64,000 bases of DNA from Antedon mediterranea (Eukaryota > Echinodermata > Crinoidea > Comatulida > Antedonidae): NCBI RefSeq assembly GCF_964355755.1, contig NC_092679.1, positions 16,420,932 to 16,484,931 on the forward strand, read 5' to 3'. The notes beneath the pieces were generated by a model, which saw only the letters and a program-made list of their open reading frames with translations, was not told the DNA's origin and made no database searches. Made by a program: the position numbers and the translations under genes. Shown one piece after another: positions 7,474 to 60,300 of the stretch. How positions within the stretch are numbered: position 1 is the first letter of the stretch; the number at the start of each line of letters is the position of its first letter.

Positions 7474-10400
7474 CTTCTCCCAGCAACAGGCCTGCTATTG
7501 TAGCTTTAATAGGAGCCAATTCCGGATTAGTGTCTGCAATGACAACTGCTTGGTCTTTTCGAAAATGATAGGAAGGCCACCATGATATTCTTAACTTCCA
7601 GCAATTTAGAATTACATCTAGGCCACTATCATCATGTCTAAAGGAGAGGAATATAGAAGAAAAATGATCAGCTCTGAGGAATTACCAAACAAGAAGGGTG
7701 CACCAGATACAAAGAAATATAATGATTCAATAATATACAAATAATTAATGTTTAAGAGTTGAATGGTGAGAATAATTAAAAAATTGACTGCTCTATTTAA
7801 TGAGCAAAGCCAATAAACAAATACAAAACATTAATTATTTGTTTGATAACAAACCTACTTTTATTCAAGTTATCCATTGTAAATCATTGACAAATGCTAG
7901 GCCGGAACCTAAGCCATTAAAAAAGGCAGTGCTCCAACTTTAGACGTGGAATAGAACAGTTATGGTCGGCTTGCACAGCAAGTTGATTTCCGAAAACGAA
8001 CAGTCAACAACGTTGCGTGGCAAAAAATCTCAAAATGTTTACATAAAGCTGAATGTGCATTAGAACCATTCATTATCACCATAAGATATCACTTTTCCAT
8101 GAGATAGGGTAAATTTAAAATGACATGCGATGCTCAATTGACAAATCAAATTGCAAGAATACAATCAGGTGTGTTATAATATAAAATGTATCAAAATACA
8201 CTACATAAAAAATATGGTATTTAATCAATCCACCTAGCTACTAGATGCTGTCTTACAGCCTGTTATATGGCCAGCATAATTTTTTGTCTCTTGATAATGC
8301 TAATTGTATACAATTACCGTTTTCTGACTCTTGTTATTTCATCACACAACAACTTCCATGGTTGAACTGTATCTTGCCAACAAGCATAGTCTAACATGTC
8401 AAACAGCATAACAATGCTCTTTCTTTTAACTTCAGCTAATAAAAAAAGAATGTAATTTCAATTTTAAAGGTAAAAGGTATTTGTATTTGCCTTCAAGCTT
8501 AACTGGAAACGGAGGACATCTGGATTAGGCCTTCCACAGACACATGGCAGCTAGCAGTGCAGCGCCTACCAGATCAGCACACTGGGAGACGATCTCCACT
8601 CTTTGGGAAAAGTGTACAAAGTTCTTTAATGTGCACTATGAACATTGGACCAACTGGTTTACGTCCCATCCAAAGGATGAGGCAATGTGAGTAAAACATC
8701 TTGAGTAAGGATACAGTTACAATGGTACAGATAGCTAGTCCGATATTATCATTACACCATCACTCTCTGGTATATACAACACCTGCCGCGAATCCAGACG
8801 GTCTCCCATCAACGCTGTATGGCCGTTTACTTGTCATACAGAAGAACCCCTCTTGTCCTCAGTTAACATTCTGTTATGCCCTGTCTACACTATCAAACTC
8901 TATGACAAAAAAATGTGATGTGCCTATATATGGACATGATGATGTCATATCACTACTATATTTGGGCATATCACTACTATATTTGGGCCTATCACTACCA
9001 TATTTGGGCACATTTGTCAAACTGGTTTGATAGTGTAGACAGAGCTTTATTATCATCATCTCCAAGTCTGTTGATATATCTGCATGGAATTTATTTTTTT
9101 CATGACAGAAAACAGTAGCGTGGTAGCTTGGTACTAAAAACAGTAGTATACCACAAGTAGCGGCAGGGAGTAAAGGAAGTATGTAATAAAACAATGCCCA
9201 ATAAAACAGCAAGATCAGTTTACAATTCTATCCAGTTATAAGCCCATGTGATACTTACAAGTGATTTTTCTTGATTTCTTTCTGCGTTCAAGAATATGAA
9301 GACGTTCGTAAAGTTCCAAAACAAATTCACTAGAAGGAACTTTGGCTACAAGTTTCTTTAAATTAAAACAAACAATAAACAAACAATAAATCAAAAGAGA
9401 TTAAATTCAGAATGTTTTGTTGAAGACCAAAGTACAGATCTGCGATAAAAAAATTAGGGTTTCCCCTCTAAATTTCTTTCATATTTATTTAGTCATTGTT
9501 TATAACTTTACAATTACAGTACAAAATTAATGGCAAGGATCCTGCATAAAGAAGTTTACAATTCTGTTTTTGCAGGACCCTTTTACATAAAACATAAAAA
9601 ATAAAACTCAACATAAATAAAATAAAAGTGTATAAATAAAATTTTAGTGTTGTTCATCAGCATAAAACGATAAATATCGTTTTTAACGTGTTTATTTATA
9701 CATTTATTTTTTTCTTTTTGTTGTTGGGACTGAGGCCACGACGGCCAATAGATACTGTAGCATATCTTGACAACAGTGTAATAAAAATAAGTTCAGTACA
9801 GTGTATATATATATATAATTTGAAACGATAAAGATGAGAAAATCTGTGAGAATGAGAAAAAGTCGCCCCAACAGAGACTCGAACTCGGACCGTCTGCTTG
9901 ATATGCAGTTGCCCTAACCATTAGACCACTGGGGCTTTCATGGTATTGTTCAAACTCGATTGGATAGCGACTCTTTAACATTCTCGGCGTGGTACGGTGG
10001 GGCGACTTTTTCTCATTCTCACATATTTCCTCATCTTTATCTTTTCAAATTAATTAATTAAATTTCAGTATATCACCGGGTGGTTTAGAATTGCCTAATG
10101 TGTTTATATATATATATCCTCATTTCATTAAATTTACCATGATTAATTTATGACATATTTGTATTTGCATTTAATTTTTTAATTTATATTTTAGTTATTT
10201 TTTATTATTTTAATTTTATATTGTATAATAAGGGTCAATATGAGACGAAGTACCCACTTCTAATCTTGTTCCTAATAATGGTTTTTTTAAATTTATTTTT
10301 GTTCTTTATTTAATTCAATTTTGTTTGCTTTCATGTTATTTCAATCAATTATTATTGATTATTGTTATTTTATTACCATTATATTATTACTGTAGCTTCA

Positions 10401-16127: not shown

Positions 16128-16958
16128 CTCTCTGAACACGTGCGGCGAGGAGAATAACAACAACAAACTTTTTTTTTAGTTGACCAATGATAATATTTGC
16201 GGTCCGCAACGATTTGTTAACATATTGGGAGTGAATTATTTTTATATTTATCCATCCATCAATAGGCTCAGGTTAAAGGTTAAGCCAGCTCAGCAGTGTT
16301 GAGTTATTTTGATTTCTCATCATACAAACAACAGCTGTTACTTTATTATTTTGGTAGTAGTAGGCCTAGGTAATTATTAACTAGTACACCTGGTAAATAT
16401 GTATATTAGATATAACCTAAGTAGAGTAATAATGGAGTTATAGACTAACGTCATACCGCGCGGTAAACTAATTTATAATGTCTTGTCTCGCCTTTTTAGT
16501 TAGTTAGCTAGCTAGCCTGGCGCCCTACTACTACTACTAGTTAGCAGGAGGGTAAACCAGCAGGAGCTAGCTAAGTTAGGCTAGTGTAGTGAGACTGTAT
16601 GGCTGGTTTAAGAAACCTGAAGGAGGAGGGGATCCATTCCCGTAGTAGGCCAGGTCCGGACTCTAGACCTTTGGGGTGGGATGTTTTCAGATCAGTTTCT
16701 TAAAGGAATAAAAGGGTGAATTGATCACGGTGATCCTGGGGAATAAAAAGATCACCTTTTTCATCACTCCAAATTTATGATTTGATATGAAGTTATTATT
16801 TACGGTGTTATAATAATTTTATATATTTATAATCATATTTATTATTCAAATTGCGCAAATCGTTCAAATCGCGCATAACATATACATTTTTAAATAGAGT
16901 AAAATTATGTCGTGATTGAAATATTGATTTTAACTTTTTTTTTCTAGGTATTAAAATA
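16128..16958. promoter_or_regulatory. Head-to-head intergenic region of the TAF1A-like and MCFD2-like genes
   Basis: The divergent start codons are 831 bp apart, so the promoters of both genes and the unseen 5'UTR exon of MCFD2 must lie here. A CCAAT word (GACCAATGAT) lies near 16182-16191 and a few CpG-rich words (CGCGCGG) near 16457. The final T-rich tract and CTAG at 16932-16947 form the MCFD2 intron acceptor. I could not fix transcription start sites. Confidence 0.45.
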
Positions 16959-18477
16959 ATGAAATTAATGGAGAGAATGTTACTGTTATTTGCATTGTGT
17001 GCTGTGCATGTGTCTGGGCAGATAGATATAAACCAGCAACAACAGCAGCACAACATGCATCAACAAAATGGACAACAACAGCCCATTGAGAACTTGCACG
17101 TTCAAGCTCAAATGAATCAGCAGCAACAACAGCCAAATGTAAGCCTACCAATCCTATGTCCCCTTAATAAAGGTGTTCCCTGAATAGGGAAGGCCCCATA
17201 GTGCTAAAACATGTTTCCCCTAGTTAGTTTCACAGGAATATGTCCCCTTAATACTAATACAGTAGGGGTGTTTCACATGAATATGTCCCCTTAATAGGGG
17301 TGTTTCACAGGAATATGTCCCCTTAATAGGGGTGTTCCACATGAGTATATTTACACAGTATTAATATTATTTTGTATTTTTCTTCTATGATTTTTATTAC
17401 TGGTATATTTTCTTTTTAATTGTTTAGATAGTAAATCAAGCAAATGTACCTCCTCAACAAGTTCCAGTTAATTCTCATCCACCACCAGAGGGCGATGTAA
17501 CAGGAAGAACAAATAGATTGAGAGATAAAAGTCACATTCATGATAAAGAGTGAGGTTTATTTTATTTAGTTCATTGTGAAATCATATTCATTTTAAATAC
17601 AATCAATTCTTGGTAATTCGTTTTTTTTTTATCCTTCGTTTTCTTTATCCTTTGTTTTTTTTATTCTTCGTTTAAATGTATCTCTGTTTCACTCATCTGA
17701 TGCTTTACCTCCAATTGGAGACACCTCATCTTTCCTATTCTTATCACCATTCCGAACTTTCCAAACCAAAGTGATTTGTCTTCATTCTGTTGCTTTTGTA
17801 CCCATCCCTGATACCATTGTCAAACCACCTGTCACAAAAAAAATGTTAATTCCAGTCATACATTTTTGGAATTTAGTAATATGTTGAATATGTGCTAAAA
17901 TATACCCACAAAAATAACATCAATGTATTTTTACATGTCACCTAAATACTGAGTCGCATAAATACTGTGTCACTCGCATAAATACTGTGACGTCACTTGC
18001 ATAAATACTGTGACGTCACTTGCATAAATACTGTGTCCCATAATTACTGTGTGTCCCATAATTACTGTGTGTCACATAAATACTGTGTCACATGACAGAC
18101 ACTGAACAATAAAATCAACAGAATGGTGGCCACATCACTTTGGTTAATCTAACCAATCATACCATTCCCTCCACAGGCATATAAAAGAACATCTTCAAGA
18201 CGTTATCAGTCCAGAAGATTCAGGCCGTGAAATGACGGAAGACGAGCTTGAATTTTATTATTTTAAATTACATGATTACGATCAGAATAATCGACTAGAT
18301 GGCGTGGAAATTATGAAAGCTATGTTTCATTTTGATGAAAAAGATCACCAATCGGATACAAAAGTAGACGAAGAAGAAATCTTTAACTTAGTATCCGATG
18401 TTTTGGAAGAATTTGATAAAAATTTGGATGGCTTTATTGACTATCCTGAATATTCAAGTGCTCAACTCAACGGTTGA
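16959..18477 (+). CDS. MCFD2: MCFD2-like EF-hand cargo adaptor for ER export, isoform with terminal exon A
   Basis: Exons are 16959-17138, 17428-17549 and 18177-18477, giving 200 aa. MCFD2 is a luminal calcium-binding partner of LMAN1 (ERGIC-53) in ER-to-Golgi glycoprotein export. Residues 1-20 form a signal peptide (hydrophobic LLLFALCAVHVSG). Residues 21-60 are Gln-rich, an insertion compared with the human protein of about 146 aa. The diagnostic HDKEHIKEHL and FYYFKLHDYD blocks follow. Two EF-hand loops sit at about 134-145 and 181-192, each with acidic ligands at positions 1 and 9 and Glu at 12. An acceptor at 16946-16947 shows that a non-coding 5' exon lies upstream. A poly(A) signal AATAAA is at 18755-18760. 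The gene is head to head with the TAF1A-like gene. A second copy of the last exon lies 1.5 kb downstream. Confidence 0.93.
17215..17350. repeat. Short tandem array of the TGTCCCCTTAATAGGGGTGT motif
   Basis: Three to four copies of AATATGTCCCCTTAATAGGG with GTGTTTCACA spacers lie in MCFD2 intron 1. The same word occurs in other introns across the window. Confidence 0.75.
17940..18090. repeat. Minisatellite with TGACGTCA words in MCFD2 intron 2
   Basis: About seven units of CATAAATACTGTG with spacers. Two units carry GTGACGTCACTTG, the palindromic CRE core. Confidence 0.8.
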
Positions 18478-19311
18478 TAAATTATATAATTTTTTTAATT
18501 GTTTAATTTTCACACTATATTTTTATATTAATATGCTTTAATTTCTAATATTTGTTTAGAAATTCACTCAGGGCCACAGATACAGTGGTATATAGCTTAT
18601 TGTAGTAACATGCCCACCGTGCCCCCTAGTTTGATACAATTTAAGCACAATTTTGCACAGTACTGATAGTCGGAATGACTATTTAGTCTAGTTATTAATT
18701 ATTTAAAAAGCAACATTTTAGACGTTTAATACTTTACAAGGTGCTTTTTTAAAAAATAAATATAATATATTGTGCTATAAATTAGTTTTTTTGGATATGC
18801 TATTTTAATGTAACACAATAGTTATTCAGTTTGTCAAAAAATTGGACCGAAAAAACAACATTATTTATATTGACAAAAAATATGTTTTCCAAAAACTTGT
18901 AGTATTGGGAAAATACATCTATAACTAGTAACTTTTTAAACTTGTAATGCTGTGTGTAGGGGGAGGGGGTGGTCGGAGGTAGTGATCGGGTGTTTTTAAG
19001 CCAAAAATATCTTGTTACATTACACAATGTGTAAGGTCTGAGACGGCACTGCTCACAAAGATAAATAATAATTGTAAGAGTTAATGAAAATGAAACATGT
19101 ATTAACAAGCAATAACAAATAAAATGTTTCTTATATAAACTGTCCATCCATTGAAGATGAAGAACTAATACGAGAGCAATAAAGTTTGAATTCATATATT
19201 GGTGGTTAATTTAATTACAATCTGCTAAGCTGAAAGGTGTAATTGCGAAATAGAATGTAAGCACAAAGTATGTATTCATAGTCGCATTGTTACGAAATTT
19301 AAATTCACTTA

Positions 19312-19483
19312 TGCTCTGTCTACACTATCAAACTTTATGTGACAAAATATGCGATATGCCCACATATGATGATATCATATCATCGTGCCTATATATGGAC
19401 ACGTCACACTTTTTAAAAAAAAACTATTTTGATAATGGAGGTATAAATACCTCAATGGTTTGATAGTGTAGACAGTGATTTAG
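19312..19483. mobile_element. TTAAGC-TIR MITE, copy 5
   Basis: GCTCTGTCTACACTATCAAA at the left and TTTGATAGTGTAGACAGTG at the right. The centre is diverged and lacks the TATGGTAGT unit. Confidence 0.85.
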
Positions 19484-19770
19484 AGTTGAGGTTATTAATA
19501 TTTCTAGTCTTTGAAAGCAACACCTATGAAAAAATTGCGTAACAAACAACAAGCAAGTTTATTTTGTCGGTATTAAAGAAAGAAAAATCTATATAAGCTT
19601 AAAATAATTTCCCGTACGGTAATTGTCGGAACCGAGGGTTTCCCCGGATTCCGTTTTCTGGAGGTTTCGGATATTATTCACAAATAGTAGTAGGGCCTAC
19701 CAAATGAATGCTTACAACGAACGATATCGTAGTTAGCACATGGCCCAGTGTATCGTTTTATGATGCATAT

Positions 19771-19943
19771 AAAGGCCAATTTAGACAGGTAAGGGAAAAC
19801 CGCGTAGCTTGAACAATGTAAAATCTGTATCCTAAGAAGGAACCGCCTATCCGCTACGCGTTGTGTGTAAATGGTCATAATTAAGGAATAGCATATTCTA
19901 TATTTTTATTACCGTTACCGCTTGTCTGTGTAAATTGGCCTTA
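19771..19943. mobile_element. TIR MITE of the GGCCAATTTACACAGAC family, copy 2
   Basis: AAAGGCCAATTTAGACAGGT at the left and CTGTGTAAATTGGCCTTAA at the right, sharing TATTTTTATTACCGTTACCG with 11964-12142. Confidence 0.75.
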
Positions 19944-20017
19944 ACGTTTTAAAATATCGATAGTTGTTAGTTTTCTAAAGCATAACCGACACATTATATT
20001 TGTTTTTTTTTTCTCAG

Positions 20018-20318
20018 TCATATTATGCACCATTTGGATTCCATCGTAGACAAACCAACATCAGAAATGACGGAAGAAGAATATCAATTTTACTATTTTA
20101 AAGTGCATGATTACGACAACAACAATGTACTGGATGGCATTGAGCTAATACAAGCGATGACAGACTTCCACTTGGAAGAAGATGACGACCCCGAAGACAG
20201 GCTTAGTCTAAGTGATATGGAGCTATTCGAAATGCTCGAACCGATATTCGACGAGGATGACGTAAATAGGGATGGCTATATTGACTATGCTGAGTTTGCT
20301 GCTTCGCCAGATTTATAA
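20018..20318 (+). CDS. Second MCFD2-like terminal exon (exon B): alternative last exon or end of a duplicate gene
   Basis: This exon encodes a full EF-hand pair homologous to exon A of the MCFD2-like gene. It is also exactly 301 nt and starts in the same phase: the GA left by exon 2 plus T gives Asp, where exon A gives Glu. The acceptor is a long T run ending TTCTCAG at 20011-20017. The product reads HIMHHLDSIVDK, EEEYQFYYFKVHDYD, then calcium loops at about 132-143 and 182-193, each with Glu at position 12. The frame is intact and the key ligands are kept, so it is under constraint or young. I found no second signal-peptide or linker exon between 18478 and 20017, which favours alternative splicing over a separate gene. 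The stop codon coincides with the first bases of a MITE. A distant AATAAA is at 21216-21221. Confidence 0.8.
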
Positions 20319-20445
20319 AGCTTGGTTACCACTAGGACACAACGCAAGCGTGTTGACCAATGACAAGCGACAGCGCGAATAATCCAGCGCTTGTGATTGG
20401 TCAAACACTTACGTTGCGTGACGTCCTTGTGTTGCGTCTTTAGCA
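20317..20445. mobile_element. GGTTCCCACT-TIR MITE, copy B, starting at the exon B stop codon
   Basis: TAAAGCTTGGTTACCACTAG begins within the last codons of MCFD2 exon B. The inner inverted CAATGACAAGCG and CGCTTGTGATTGG words match copies A, C and D. The right end is degraded. Confidence 0.8.
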
Positions 20446-21542
20446 TATCCCCAGATATGCCCCCGACTATTATATAGGCTTATATTTGGCCATCATCGCC
20501 GTGACTTGACACAGTAAACTAAAAATTTCAAATGCAACTAGGAGAAACGTCCGTGGCAAATGTGGGACCATTACGGGATTCAGAGAAAAAATATCTGCGA
20601 TAGTCGGGAGGAAAATACCATGGTGTCATTTGTCAAGAGTTAGTACGGAGCGAATACAGTTTGTAAAGTCGCCACAGACTAGGGCTAACTATAGGCCTAT
20701 TTAAGCAAAGAAAGGGTTTACCGCTATTTACCAAATACCACTAAATTGTGCAATGTATCACCAACAGAGGCCTACTGTATTTTTACTTTCTCACTTCAGA
20801 ACTGGTTATTGATACATAAATTGATAATATTGTCTTGTAAATGATATATTACTTTTAATTATTTAAAAAATCCTTAGTTTTATTAGCTATTAGGCGGCTC
20901 GAAGAGCAATCGGTATTTAAACGGTCGTGCGATTGTTAAATGCGGTCGTACGACTGTTAAATGCGATCGTACGATTATTAAATGCGATTGTTCAATCCGG
21001 TCGTGCGATCGTTTTAAAAGGCGATTGTGCAAACTTTTACATTTTTTTTACAAGTTTCATCGCTTTCAATGCGAATATTTTTTTTGTTGATTTCCGACAT
21101 TTTAGATTAGCATCAGCGTGAACAATCCACTGTTACTTGTACCTACTTATTATTATACAAAAACTTGAAAGTAATTCGTAATATTAGAACTTTTAAATGT
21201 ATTTTAAATGAAAAAAATAAACACAAATATGCAAGTTCCATTCCTACAATCTTCCAGGTGATAAAAAGTGCGTCTTCCTAAAAAGTGTCTTCTTATTTTA
21301 TAGTGCCCTCCTGACCAATAGTGCCTTATGAGTGAATAGTGTATTTTAAATTAGTGTACCTCAATATTTATAGTCTTTCTGTAGCATTATGAATTGGACA
21401 GTTTTATTAATACATTAGTTAGAATTTATTCAATAAAAAGAAATAATATTAATTGTCTAGAGTTTGTACTGTTTATTTGGTATCATGTAAAAACAATTAA
21501 AAAAAAAAGTACTATCACACGATCGTTTAATAGTACCGTTTA
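20446..21542. other. Region downstream of MCFD2 exon B
   Basis: No coding exon is recognised. It holds a tandem array at 20905-21012 (unit about 22 bp, TTAAATGCGATCGTACGATT) and a distant AATAAA at 21216-21221. Confidence 0.5.
20905..21012. repeat. Tandem repeat, unit about 22 bp, with palindromic CGATCGTACGAT core
   Basis: Four to five diverged units of the type GCGATCGTACGATTATTAAA. It gives a short LLNA(I/V)VR periodic frame that is not a gene. Confidence 0.8.
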
Positions 21543-21919
21543 TATAACACCTATATAAATTCCTGTCATTTGATTGGACGAATGTGGGTCACATGGCGTG
21601 CAATAGTACGCACTATTCAACGATCGTTAAATAGTACTTTTTGAAACATTTTTGTGTACGAAAAAAAAACGTCTAGATGTTATATAAAACAAATAATGAA
21701 TGTTTTGTATTCGTGTAATGGTACAAATAATGGCACTTGGTGAATGATAAAAGGTTATATCAACTCGGCTTTGCCTCGTTGATATAACCTTTCATCATTC
21801 ACCTCGTGCCATTATTTGTACCATTGCACTCTTAAACATTCATTATTTGTATACTATTGAACGCCATGTGACCCATGATCGTCCAATCAAATGACAAGAA
21901 TATATATAGGTGTGTTATA
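21543..21919. mobile_element. Foldback element with nested hairpin
   Basis: The outer arms 21543-21612 and 21850-21919 are inverse copies (TCATTTGATTGGACGA, GTGGGTCACATGGCGT). A second perfect-looking hairpin at 21718-21832 (GGTACAAATAATGGCAC, AAAGGTTATATCAAC) sits in the centre. No frame is present. Confidence 0.85.
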
Positions 21920-22874: not shown

Positions 22875-23040
22875 TTAAGCTCCTGTCTACACTATCAAAC
22901 TTTATGTGACAAAAACAATGTGATGTGCCCATATATGGACATGATGATGTCATATTATTACTATATTTTGGCATATCACTACCATATTTGGGCACATCAC
23001 ACTTTTGTCAAACTAGTTTGATAGTGTAGAGCTAGCTTTA
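22875..23040. mobile_element. TTAAGC-TIR MITE, copy 6
   Basis: TTAAGCTCCTGTCTACACTA at the left and TAGTTTGATAGTGTAGAGCT at the right, with internal ATATCACTACCATATTTGGG. Confidence 0.85.
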
Positions 23041-23547: not shown

Positions 23548-23758
23548 CACCCTTTATAATTGTCCGCCACCCCTTTCCTAATTGTCCACCAACCTCTTTT
23601 TATTTGTCCGTCACCCTTTCCTAATTGTCCACCATCCCTTTCCTAATTGTCCACCATCCCTTCCTAATTGTCCACCACCCCTCTTCCTATTGGCCACCAC
23701 CCCCTTCCTAATTGTCCGTCACCTCCTTCCTAATTGTCCGTCACCCTCCTAATAAATT
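23548..23758. repeat. Minisatellite, unit about 18-20 bp, about 11 copies
   Basis: Degenerate units of CCTTTCCTAATTGTCCACCA with CCGCCACC and CCGTCACC variants. Confidence 0.85.
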
Positions 23759-24299
23759 GCTAACACAAATCATTAACTGTAGGTCGCCTACGTTGATTTA
23801 GGCTGTGACAATACAGCGATTATATCGCGCGTGCCAACATATTGTATATTTAGACACAACAAATAACAAAGGTATTTGTAGCACAAAACACAACCAAAAC
23901 AATTATACAATAGAAACATAACAAGTAAACAAATATGTTAAAAAACACAAACAAATTATATTAAATAAACAAAGACAAGGAAGGTGAAAGTATTAGTAAT
24001 ATCTTAGCTTCGAATGGTCTGTCTTCTCTACTCTCTAAAGAGCTTTTTGCACAAATGGTTATTAAATAAAGTTCACAAGAAAAAAATCTACAATGACTAA
24101 GAGAACGTGGAAGATAAGCACTTACTTAGATAAAACTCTTTCAGTATCGCCTATAAGTGCATGCAACTTTTTAATAAGTTCGCCCAGACCATAATTATAC
24201 CAACGTCACTGGGGTGGGTGTCTGTAAAAGAAATAAAATAGAAAAACAAAACCACGTTACTAAAATTTGCGACACCTAAATTCTGTAGTATTTGTCCAT

Positions 24300-57300: not shown

Positions 57301-60300
57301 CTTGAAAATAATCTTTATGTTGATTGAGAACAAGTATTTTTAGTCTACACAAATCAGTTTATTATTGAATTGTTCAAATAATTAAATCAAATCATTGTTC
57401 TTTTAAAGTTCTCCACAAAAAGATTTATAGCACTAAAGTGTTTGAGCCAATGATCTTGACTGCTCACATGGGCTTATAATGGATAAGATCAGGGTTACAG
57501 AGTACATTTGGGTGTAGACAAGGTCCCTTCGGATTGGAGGGTCATGTAATAACCCAGTATCAGGTGTTGATATATACTTAATGTTATACCATACTTTAAT
57601 TTCAATATATTTCCACAATATTATAACATACATGATATACACAATGACATATAATGTTATGAGTAGTTTGTTAATAAATAAAATTGCATATAATAAATAC
57701 AATGAAAAGTAGTTCAGTCATGTGGTGGGTGGAGAGTCATATATAATTCACAAAGACTTTAAGTTCGACCAACCAAAGATATAACATTAAATACGAAAAA
57801 GAAAAAAATTACATTACATAAACTATATATAATAGAGTCGCTATCCAATCGAGTTTGAACAATACCATGAAAGCCCCAGTGGTCCAATGGTTAGGGCAAC
57901 TGCATATCAAGCAGACGGTCCGAGTTCGAGTCTCAGTTGGGGCGACTTTTTCTCATTCTCACAGATTTCCTCATCTTTATCGTTTCAAATTAATTAAATT
58001 TCAGTATATCACCGGGCGGTTTAAAATTAATGTTCTTTGCCTGATTTGTTTATATAAAAGAAAAAAAAGCTACAATTTCTATTTAAACCACTTCATCTGA
58101 TCTTAACTGGTCTTATGAAATATATATTTAACGTTCATCATATCTTGATAGTACTGTAGGCTGGTGGCCAACATTACAGTAGTTGACCATTGCATAGCTA
58201 CTATACTTACAATGTGTTTATATGGGTATTATATGGGTATATGGGTATGAAGGAAATATAATTCCTCCGTGGAGACATATTCAACAAATTGAATTGAAGC
58301 CTATTTTTCTTATTTGTCATTAAAATTTCTGGAAATATATTAGTAATTAGAATTAATTAGTTTCATCTTTTATCCAAATAACTAAAATTGTATTTACTTA
58401 TTTTTCATCAAGTAGTCCAATATCCACTCCAATAATAAAAATTATGTAAATCTATGATTTATACAACAATATTTATTATTATTCTTTTACTTTTATGTTA
58501 ATTATTATTTATTTGTGACTTTCATTGAAATTTCTAGAAATATATTAGTTAGAATTAATTAATTTTCATCATTTTTTTTATCCAAATAACTATTGTGTTT
58601 ACTTATTTTTTTATTAAGGCCAATATCCACTCCAATAATTAAAATTATGTAAATCTACGATTTATACAACAATACTTGTTATGTTAATTAAATATGTCAA
58701 TATAATTTCAATATCTTCTATGGCCTTATTTGGTAATAGAGAGATTACGTTGTTACCATGACTACTGTATATATTTTATTTATTTATTTATTCTATTCTT
58801 ATTCATCAATTATCCAATCCAATATTTTAAATTATGTAAATCTATGATTCATAGCACAGAATATTTGTTATTGTGTGCTAATTAAAAACAAATATTAAAG
58901 TAATGGAATCTTCTTTGTTATGGTTTCATTAATTGAGTTATGTATAGAATACAATGCTCTTCTCCTTTGTCTCTGTAATTGAGTTAAATGCTGTACAAAT
59001 AATACAGTATTTGCCACTTGTCCCTGGAATGAGTAAACCTATTATAGGTCTATCCATGGCAATATATGAATAATAATGCAGGTTAATTAAACAATAAAAA
59101 TAAAGGACAGTAATGCTATTTATAGTGTTTACAGTATAAATTAAAATACGCACTTTAAAGACGTACGTCCCCCTGAAAAATATTTTGTTTTGTTTAATAA
59201 TGCCATTTTAATGTCACATATAAGTTATCCATTTTGAAAATTGGATCTAAACAAAATTTATTTACCTGAAAAAACTGTAATCAAGCAAAAAATTGTCAAA
59301 TTGGCTGCCATTGTCAGACAATGGATTTTTTGTTGAGTTTAACCGGTGAAAAAAATTTTTTTTTCCTACAGAAGTGATTAACTTTATTAAAAATACAAAA
59401 TAACATATTCAAAGTCTGATTTAATTAATCTTCATTTTTCATATTTTTGGGGGAAAATACATCTTTAATATTCAGGGAAGTATAAAAATACCTCCCTGCT
59501 TCATTAAAGCAACAATTCGGCTCAAATCAGGGAATATTTTCACAGTGTAGCAGTAGCCAATGATCCACAATACCTATTACAATGTTATTGCTACATATTT
59601 ATCAAATGATGTAGCCAAAAATGCAATACAAAACTACAGTATGTTTTAAAGTCCAAATTTCTGATTAATCAGCAGAATATTGCTAATCAAAATTTTCTAA
59701 TAAAAATTGTCTCTGGAAAATTAACTGAAAATTGAAATTCTAAAGTACAAAGCAAAAAGAATATATATTTAAAAAAAAACCATTTTGACGCTAAAGCCAG
59801 TCAAATGAGAAGTTGTATTAGGAAAAAGGTGTGGAACGAACCAATTCAATTCAATTTATTCTCACAAGATAAATGAGAGTTTGAGAAGTAGAATGCACTA
59901 ATATGCTGGAGAAACCTAAACTTAAATAAGCCCAGAGGGCTTAAAGGCTAGTTCCACCAGGAACAATACATTTACAAATACCAGACTCTCTGAAAACCGG
60001 AAACTCTCCCAAAACCAGACTTTTCTTGAGGTGCAAAAAGGTCCCAAATTCATTTTTACCATTAGAAACACATTCTGAATACAGACTTGCCGGAAAACCA
60101 GACATAATTCGCCAGCCCAAAGGTATCCAGTATTGGGAGAGTTGACTGTACTGTATATACAAGCAGTACATGACAATAATTAGCTAGTTAAATATTATCA
60201 TTGGAAATTTCATCATTTAAGTTAACAACATACGGAATCAGATTGCAAAAATCACAGAACCCGATTGGTTGAGGTTACCTGTAATCGCCGTTTATGTTAA

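Follow-up and report, generated by a model that had tools for sequence, protein, structure and literature searches.

The window, the whole 64,000-nt stretch of the Antedon mediterranea genome analysed here, carries on its forward strand the predicted exons of a gene for the cargo adaptor MCFD2. Table 1 presents their coordinates together with those of the features discussed below. Since the window is free of any N, no exon is hidden by an assembly gap. Read from the sequence and the joined translation, the coding part of exon 1 consists of a hydrophobic signal peptide followed by a stretch rich in glutamine and histidine, and the exon exits in phase 0 at GTAAGC. A 10-residue hydropathy scan peaks at 3.02 at its start; by this measure, rather than by a dedicated predictor, the N-terminal signal peptide expected of MCFD2 is present. 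Exon 2 exits in phase 2, its last bases GA being followed by the donor GTGAGG at 17549. Together the two exons encode an N-terminus of 100 residues with glutamine runs, long enough that an extended lid is possible.

Table 1. Coordinates of the MCFD2 exons, nearby motifs and repeats, and a related exon pair elsewhere in the genome. Positions are those of the window except in the last line.
Feature	Start	End	Strand	Description
Exon 1	16948	17138	+	short 5'UTR piece and CDS 16959-17138; putative UTR acceptor AG at 16946-16947
Exon 2	17428	17549	+	122 nt; common to both predicted isoforms; one of three frames open
Terminal exon A	18177	18477	+	301 nt including stop TGA 18475-18477; EF-hand pair; AG acceptor
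AATAAA motifs after A	18755	19183	+	motif scan: 18755, 19118, 19178; could end a transcript of A
MITE-like dispersed repeat	19316	19477	+	inverted ends; between A and B
Terminal exon B	20018	20318	+	301 nt including stop TAA 20316-20318; EF-hand pair; pyrimidine-rich AG acceptor
AATAAA motifs after B	21216	21437	+	motif scan: 21216, 21432; could end a transcript of B
VIP36-like tandem exon pair (G000:C4:19756539-19756934)	19756539	19756934	-	two 162-nt phase-0 exons, 72 nt apart

Two terminal exons, here called A and B, lie downstream of exon 2, with 1540 bases from the stop of A to the start of B. Each supplies the third codon base left missing by the phase-2 exit of exon 2, and both joined reading frames are open, giving ...HDK-E-HIKEHL with A and ...HDK-D-HIMHHL with B. 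Both predicted isoforms are 200 amino acids long, each ending at its own stop. The preliminary description of this DNA had given the positions, lengths, entry phase and separate stops of the two exons, and all of these were reproduced. It had also stressed that A and B are identical in length. Both are indeed 301 nt long, but the equality is no signature of their relationship; the A-B alignment contains four gaps (2, 1, 2 and 1 residues) that cancel one another, so that the equal length reflects compensating indels. Similarly, B is richer in aspartate and glutamate as had been claimed (30 residues versus 28 of 99), but so slightly that an emphasis on acidity is unwarranted. Lysine and arginine number 4 in B versus 8 in A, and the net charge counted from these four residue types is -20 for A and -26 for B.

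The proposed identity of the gene as MCFD2 and the presence of an EF-hand pair in each terminal exon were both borne out. Pfam detects EF-hands in A and in B, and a phmmer search of the PDB returns human MCFD2 as the top match for either exon, far ahead of other EF-hand proteins. Both matches go well beyond chance. For A, the match has an E-value of 1.7e-20 and 76.7 bits, the next protein scoring 27.2; for B, the corresponding values are 7.5e-27, 96.8 bits and 33.5. When aligned, A and human MCFD2 are identical at 41/92 positions, B and human MCFD2 at 48/94, and A and B at 42/96, or at 43/96 in a separate pairwise alignment. Since B is nearer to the human protein, A looks derived, and B is probably the ancestral-type form. 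AlphaFold2 models of A and B built from a two-row alignment had mean pLDDT values of 48.4 and 48.0, too poor to use.

By the general pattern of EF-hands, the calcium side-chain ligands of the MCFD2 loops are D81, D83, N85, D89 and E92 in the first and D129, N131, D133, D137 and E140 in the second. All ten positions hold the same residue as in human MCFD2 in A and likewise in B, so neither copy shows the loss of a calcium site. The preliminary description had held that the two exons encode different calcium-binding domains; the EF-hand bodies do differ, but at places other than the calcium ligands. The differences lie in the loop carrying half the zinc site, in net charge and in other surface residues. 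In human MCFD2, the zinc site is made up of H51, H55, H99 and H101, and a cryo-EM study suggests that it closes the N-terminal lid over the cargo site (PMC10944485). Equivalents of H51 and H55 are found at the start of both A and B. The loop of B has aspartate at 99 and histidine at 101, and thus three of the four zinc-site residues; the loop of A has histidine at 101 with a gap at 98-99 or, when read ungapped by eye, histidine at 99, again three of four. Two patient variants of human MCFD2 fall within the aligned region. The residue altered in D129E (PMC9022998) is aspartate in both A and B, while the one altered in D122V (PMC4183524) is serine in A and glutamate in B.

Whole-genome searches at E<=0.001, covering 354 Mb in 18 contigs, found exon 1 and exon 2 once each and no EF-hand copy beyond A and B, although a missing match is no proof of absence; a third EF-hand exon was discarded as a candidate on the same result. 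Across 96 aligned codons of A and B, the Nei-Gojobori method gives a pS of 0.73, corresponding to a dS of about 2.7 that is near saturation, and a pN of 0.34. Differences fall at 54/96 third, 40/96 first and 24/96 second codon positions. A pN/pS ratio as low as the observed 0.47 occurred in none of 1000 neutral simulations, 98.8% of which gained a stop; this test on two sequences assigns constraint to the pair and not to A or B separately. By these measures the duplication is old with both copies intact, and the substitutions bear the mark of constraint. Bases adjacent to the exons, compared ungapped, are 30% alike over 40 nt upstream and 18% alike over 60 nt downstream. A blastn comparison of 17550-19300 with 19301-21500 for duplicated intron flanks recovered the exons themselves (96 and 30 nt), all remaining hits being short, with E-values of 0.011 or worse.

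The most plausible reading of the genomic sequence is one MCFD2 gene in which an ancient tandem duplication doubled the final coding exon, with A and B used as alternative last exons; a probability of about 0.7 is assigned to it. It draws on a signal-peptide exon and an exon 2 that are each found once, together with two intact EF-hand exons that are both compatible with the phase-2 exit of exon 2. As expected for tandem duplicated exons, A and B are neighbouring and homologous, and both are entered in phase 2.

That B might instead be the terminal exon of a second gene located downstream, the outcome of a tandem gene duplication, is unlikely. Such a gene would have its own promoter and an unrecognised first exon, for instance one consisting of 5'UTR only, and translation would begin at an internal ATG (MHHLDS...) to yield an EF-hand protein lacking a signal peptide. 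The distance between A and B leaves room for a promoter, and an in-frame ATG does lie near the start of B. Against this, the preliminary claim that no second signal-peptide exon lies between A and B holds up: a scan of 18481-20017 found no signal-peptide-like ORF among eight ATG ORFs of at least 15 amino acids, several of them nested, and the genome searches turned up no second copy of exon 1. The candidate with the highest 10-residue hydropathy in that interval reached 1.15 versus 3.02 for exon 1 and was rejected. Under an approximate donor matrix, all eight ORFs lack a phase-2 donor with a score above zero; exon 1 is no control for this step, its own donor being phase 0. An MCFD2 body without entry into the ER would furthermore forfeit the known role of the protein, and the human-type phase-2 junction kept by B is relevant only if B is spliced to a coding exon.

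Two further alternatives concern what the second exon does. That B, or for that matter A, is a relic out of use is very improbable. Both frames are intact at a near-saturated synonymous distance, whereas nearly all neutral simulations acquired a stop, and identity to human MCFD2 and all ten inspected calcium-ligand positions are kept in each; the closeness of B to human MCFD2 makes it hardly a relic. A variant of the alternative-last-exon reading, whose odds overlap with it, is that the A and B proteins are functionally equivalent, the only use of the duplication being to provide different 3'UTRs, which could affect stability or localisation. While the shared calcium ligands, the many core residues common to A and B and the dissimilar exon flanks would fit this idea, it is judged rather improbable, for A and B differ between themselves about as much as each does from the human protein, a divergence that leaves room for different surfaces.

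Under the preferred reading of one gene with alternative last exons, splice and polyadenylation signals should govern the choice. In a usual layout of alternative last exons, the proximal exon has the weaker acceptor and the distal exon the stronger. Among the 1646 YAG sites on the forward strand of the window, 1.0% reach the pyrimidine content of the B acceptor, while 6.0% reach that of A and of exon 2. With the same approximate matrix, the exon 2 donor scores a low 1.5 versus 3.7 for exon 1. No donor of the form GT[AG]AG for splicing out of A occurs in 18177-18600. The AATAAA motifs that follow each exon, with a further one upstream of A at 18108, were considered as support for two 3' ends and rejected as such, since they occur no more densely than across the window as a whole: three are seen versus 3.37 expected in 18478-20017, and two versus 2.59 in 20319-21500. 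The forward strand of this AT-rich window contains 140 such motifs, and 932 of 1266 random 707-nt stretches contain at least one. Separate 3' ends are therefore allowed but gain no support from the motifs, and on this account the probability of the alternative-last-exon reading was lowered slightly, from 0.72 to 0.70.

Several repeats are found around the terminal exons. The intron just before A contains repeats of about 23 nt at 17949-18089 (GTCACTTGCATAAATACTGTGAC-like, from a five-copy family). The MITE-like element listed in Table 1 has a second copy at 22883-23030, and a DNA search with it gave at least 69 matching rows (40 of 933 candidates scored); many places were matched on both strands, so not every row stands for a copy of its own. 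Downstream of B, an inverted repeat at 21713-21829 has 57-nt arms that are 89% complementary and 3 nt apart, and 23550-23767 is taken up by a tandem array whose unit (CCTTTCCTAATTGTCCACCA-like) recurs about every 22 nt. Elsewhere in the window, ARAGORN identifies two tRNA-Asp sequences of 72 bases each with anticodon atc, at 9864-9935 on the reverse strand and 57873-57944 on the forward strand, which may be genes or tRNA-derived repeats.

If A and B are alternative last exons, exon 2 would join A in transcripts that stop somewhere short of B, or would skip A and use the B acceptor, which is richer in pyrimidines. The choice would be settled by the competing acceptors and by the formation of a 3' end downstream of A. 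The products would be two ER-lumenal MCFD2 proteins with a common N-terminus and different EF-hand bodies. Both may then dock on LMAN1, for which a single gene was found, and in doing so alter the cargo, or the calcium or zinc condition, that is served.

The genome search placed this LMAN1 gene on C2, with matches to ERGIC-53 in its N-terminal and lectin exons. It turned up one other L-type lectin gene, on C4, which is VIP36-like and contains the tandem exon pair of Table 1. The two copies are identical at 33/54 residues, and VIP36 is the best match for both; on that basis the duplicated lectin exon was rejected as part of LMAN1. With a gap so short (72 nt), the pair looks like a candidate for mutually exclusive exons. 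The calcium-binding loops of ERGIC-53 comprise residues 155-161 and 176-185 according to a figure legend in PMC3912170. The second VIP36-like copy aligns to residues 165-213 of full-length ERGIC-53 and spans the second calcium- and sugar-binding loop but not the first, so that exon choice might change sugar binding.

A broader and decidedly tentative proposal follows for MCFD2, namely that the one LMAN1 is served by two splice-selected adaptors with rearranged zinc sites, one loop histidine being changed in each, and that the choice of last exon would switch how ER export responds to cargo or metal. As the VIP36-like gene of the same genome also has a tandem exon pair, exon duplication, rather than the addition of genes, may be how this lineage diversifies its ER-export lectin system. 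PMC9022998 still regards the part played by MCFD2 in cargo transport as unclear. If the alternative-last-exon reading is true, the gene would amount to a ready-made swap experiment, in which two natural EF-hand bodies share an N-terminus and a single LMAN1, and it would show that splicing can diversify an ER cargo adaptor.

In its overall plan, the gene resembles human MCFD2, with which it shares a signal peptide, an EF-hand pair, all ten inspected calcium-ligand positions in both A and B, and a phase-2 intron corresponding to human intron 2 at c.149 (table in PMC4183524). It differs in that the last exon is present twice. The same table assigns c.210-244 to exon 3 and c.365 to exon 4, such that in human the EF-hand region is divided between two exons, whereas A and B each encode it in one exon without that intron. 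The N-terminus also differs, with 101 residues before the H51 equivalent versus 50 in the human protein.

Among the matches listed in the literature search, which covered titles and abstract openings and a minority of subscription papers, none dealt with MCFD2 terminal exons that are duplicated or alternatively used, and no paper combined 'MCFD2' with 'duplicated exon'. Exon duplications of this type are nevertheless described for other genes. In a study of tandem duplicated exon substitution, the C-terminal type made up 77 of 236 human events (PMC9741552), and the main text of that paper contains no occurrence of MCFD2. Its C-terminal type has homologous last coding exons in tandem with one per transcript, whereas for the pair here such use is predicted. 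The ACTN1/ACTN4 exon pair, as presented there, is alike in that the swap of a duplicated exon alters an EF-hand; it differs in that calcium binding is kept in only one of the two regions, while A and B both retain the ten inspected ligand positions. Duplicated terminal exons also occur in Drosophila pip (PMC9013439), where, in that source, eight clusters are treated under UTRs and competing RNA structures are discussed; A and B differ from these in being coding and in having unlike flanks. The A/B pair is thus an instance of an already known kind of event, C-terminal exon duplication, and is of interest as a natural domain swap.
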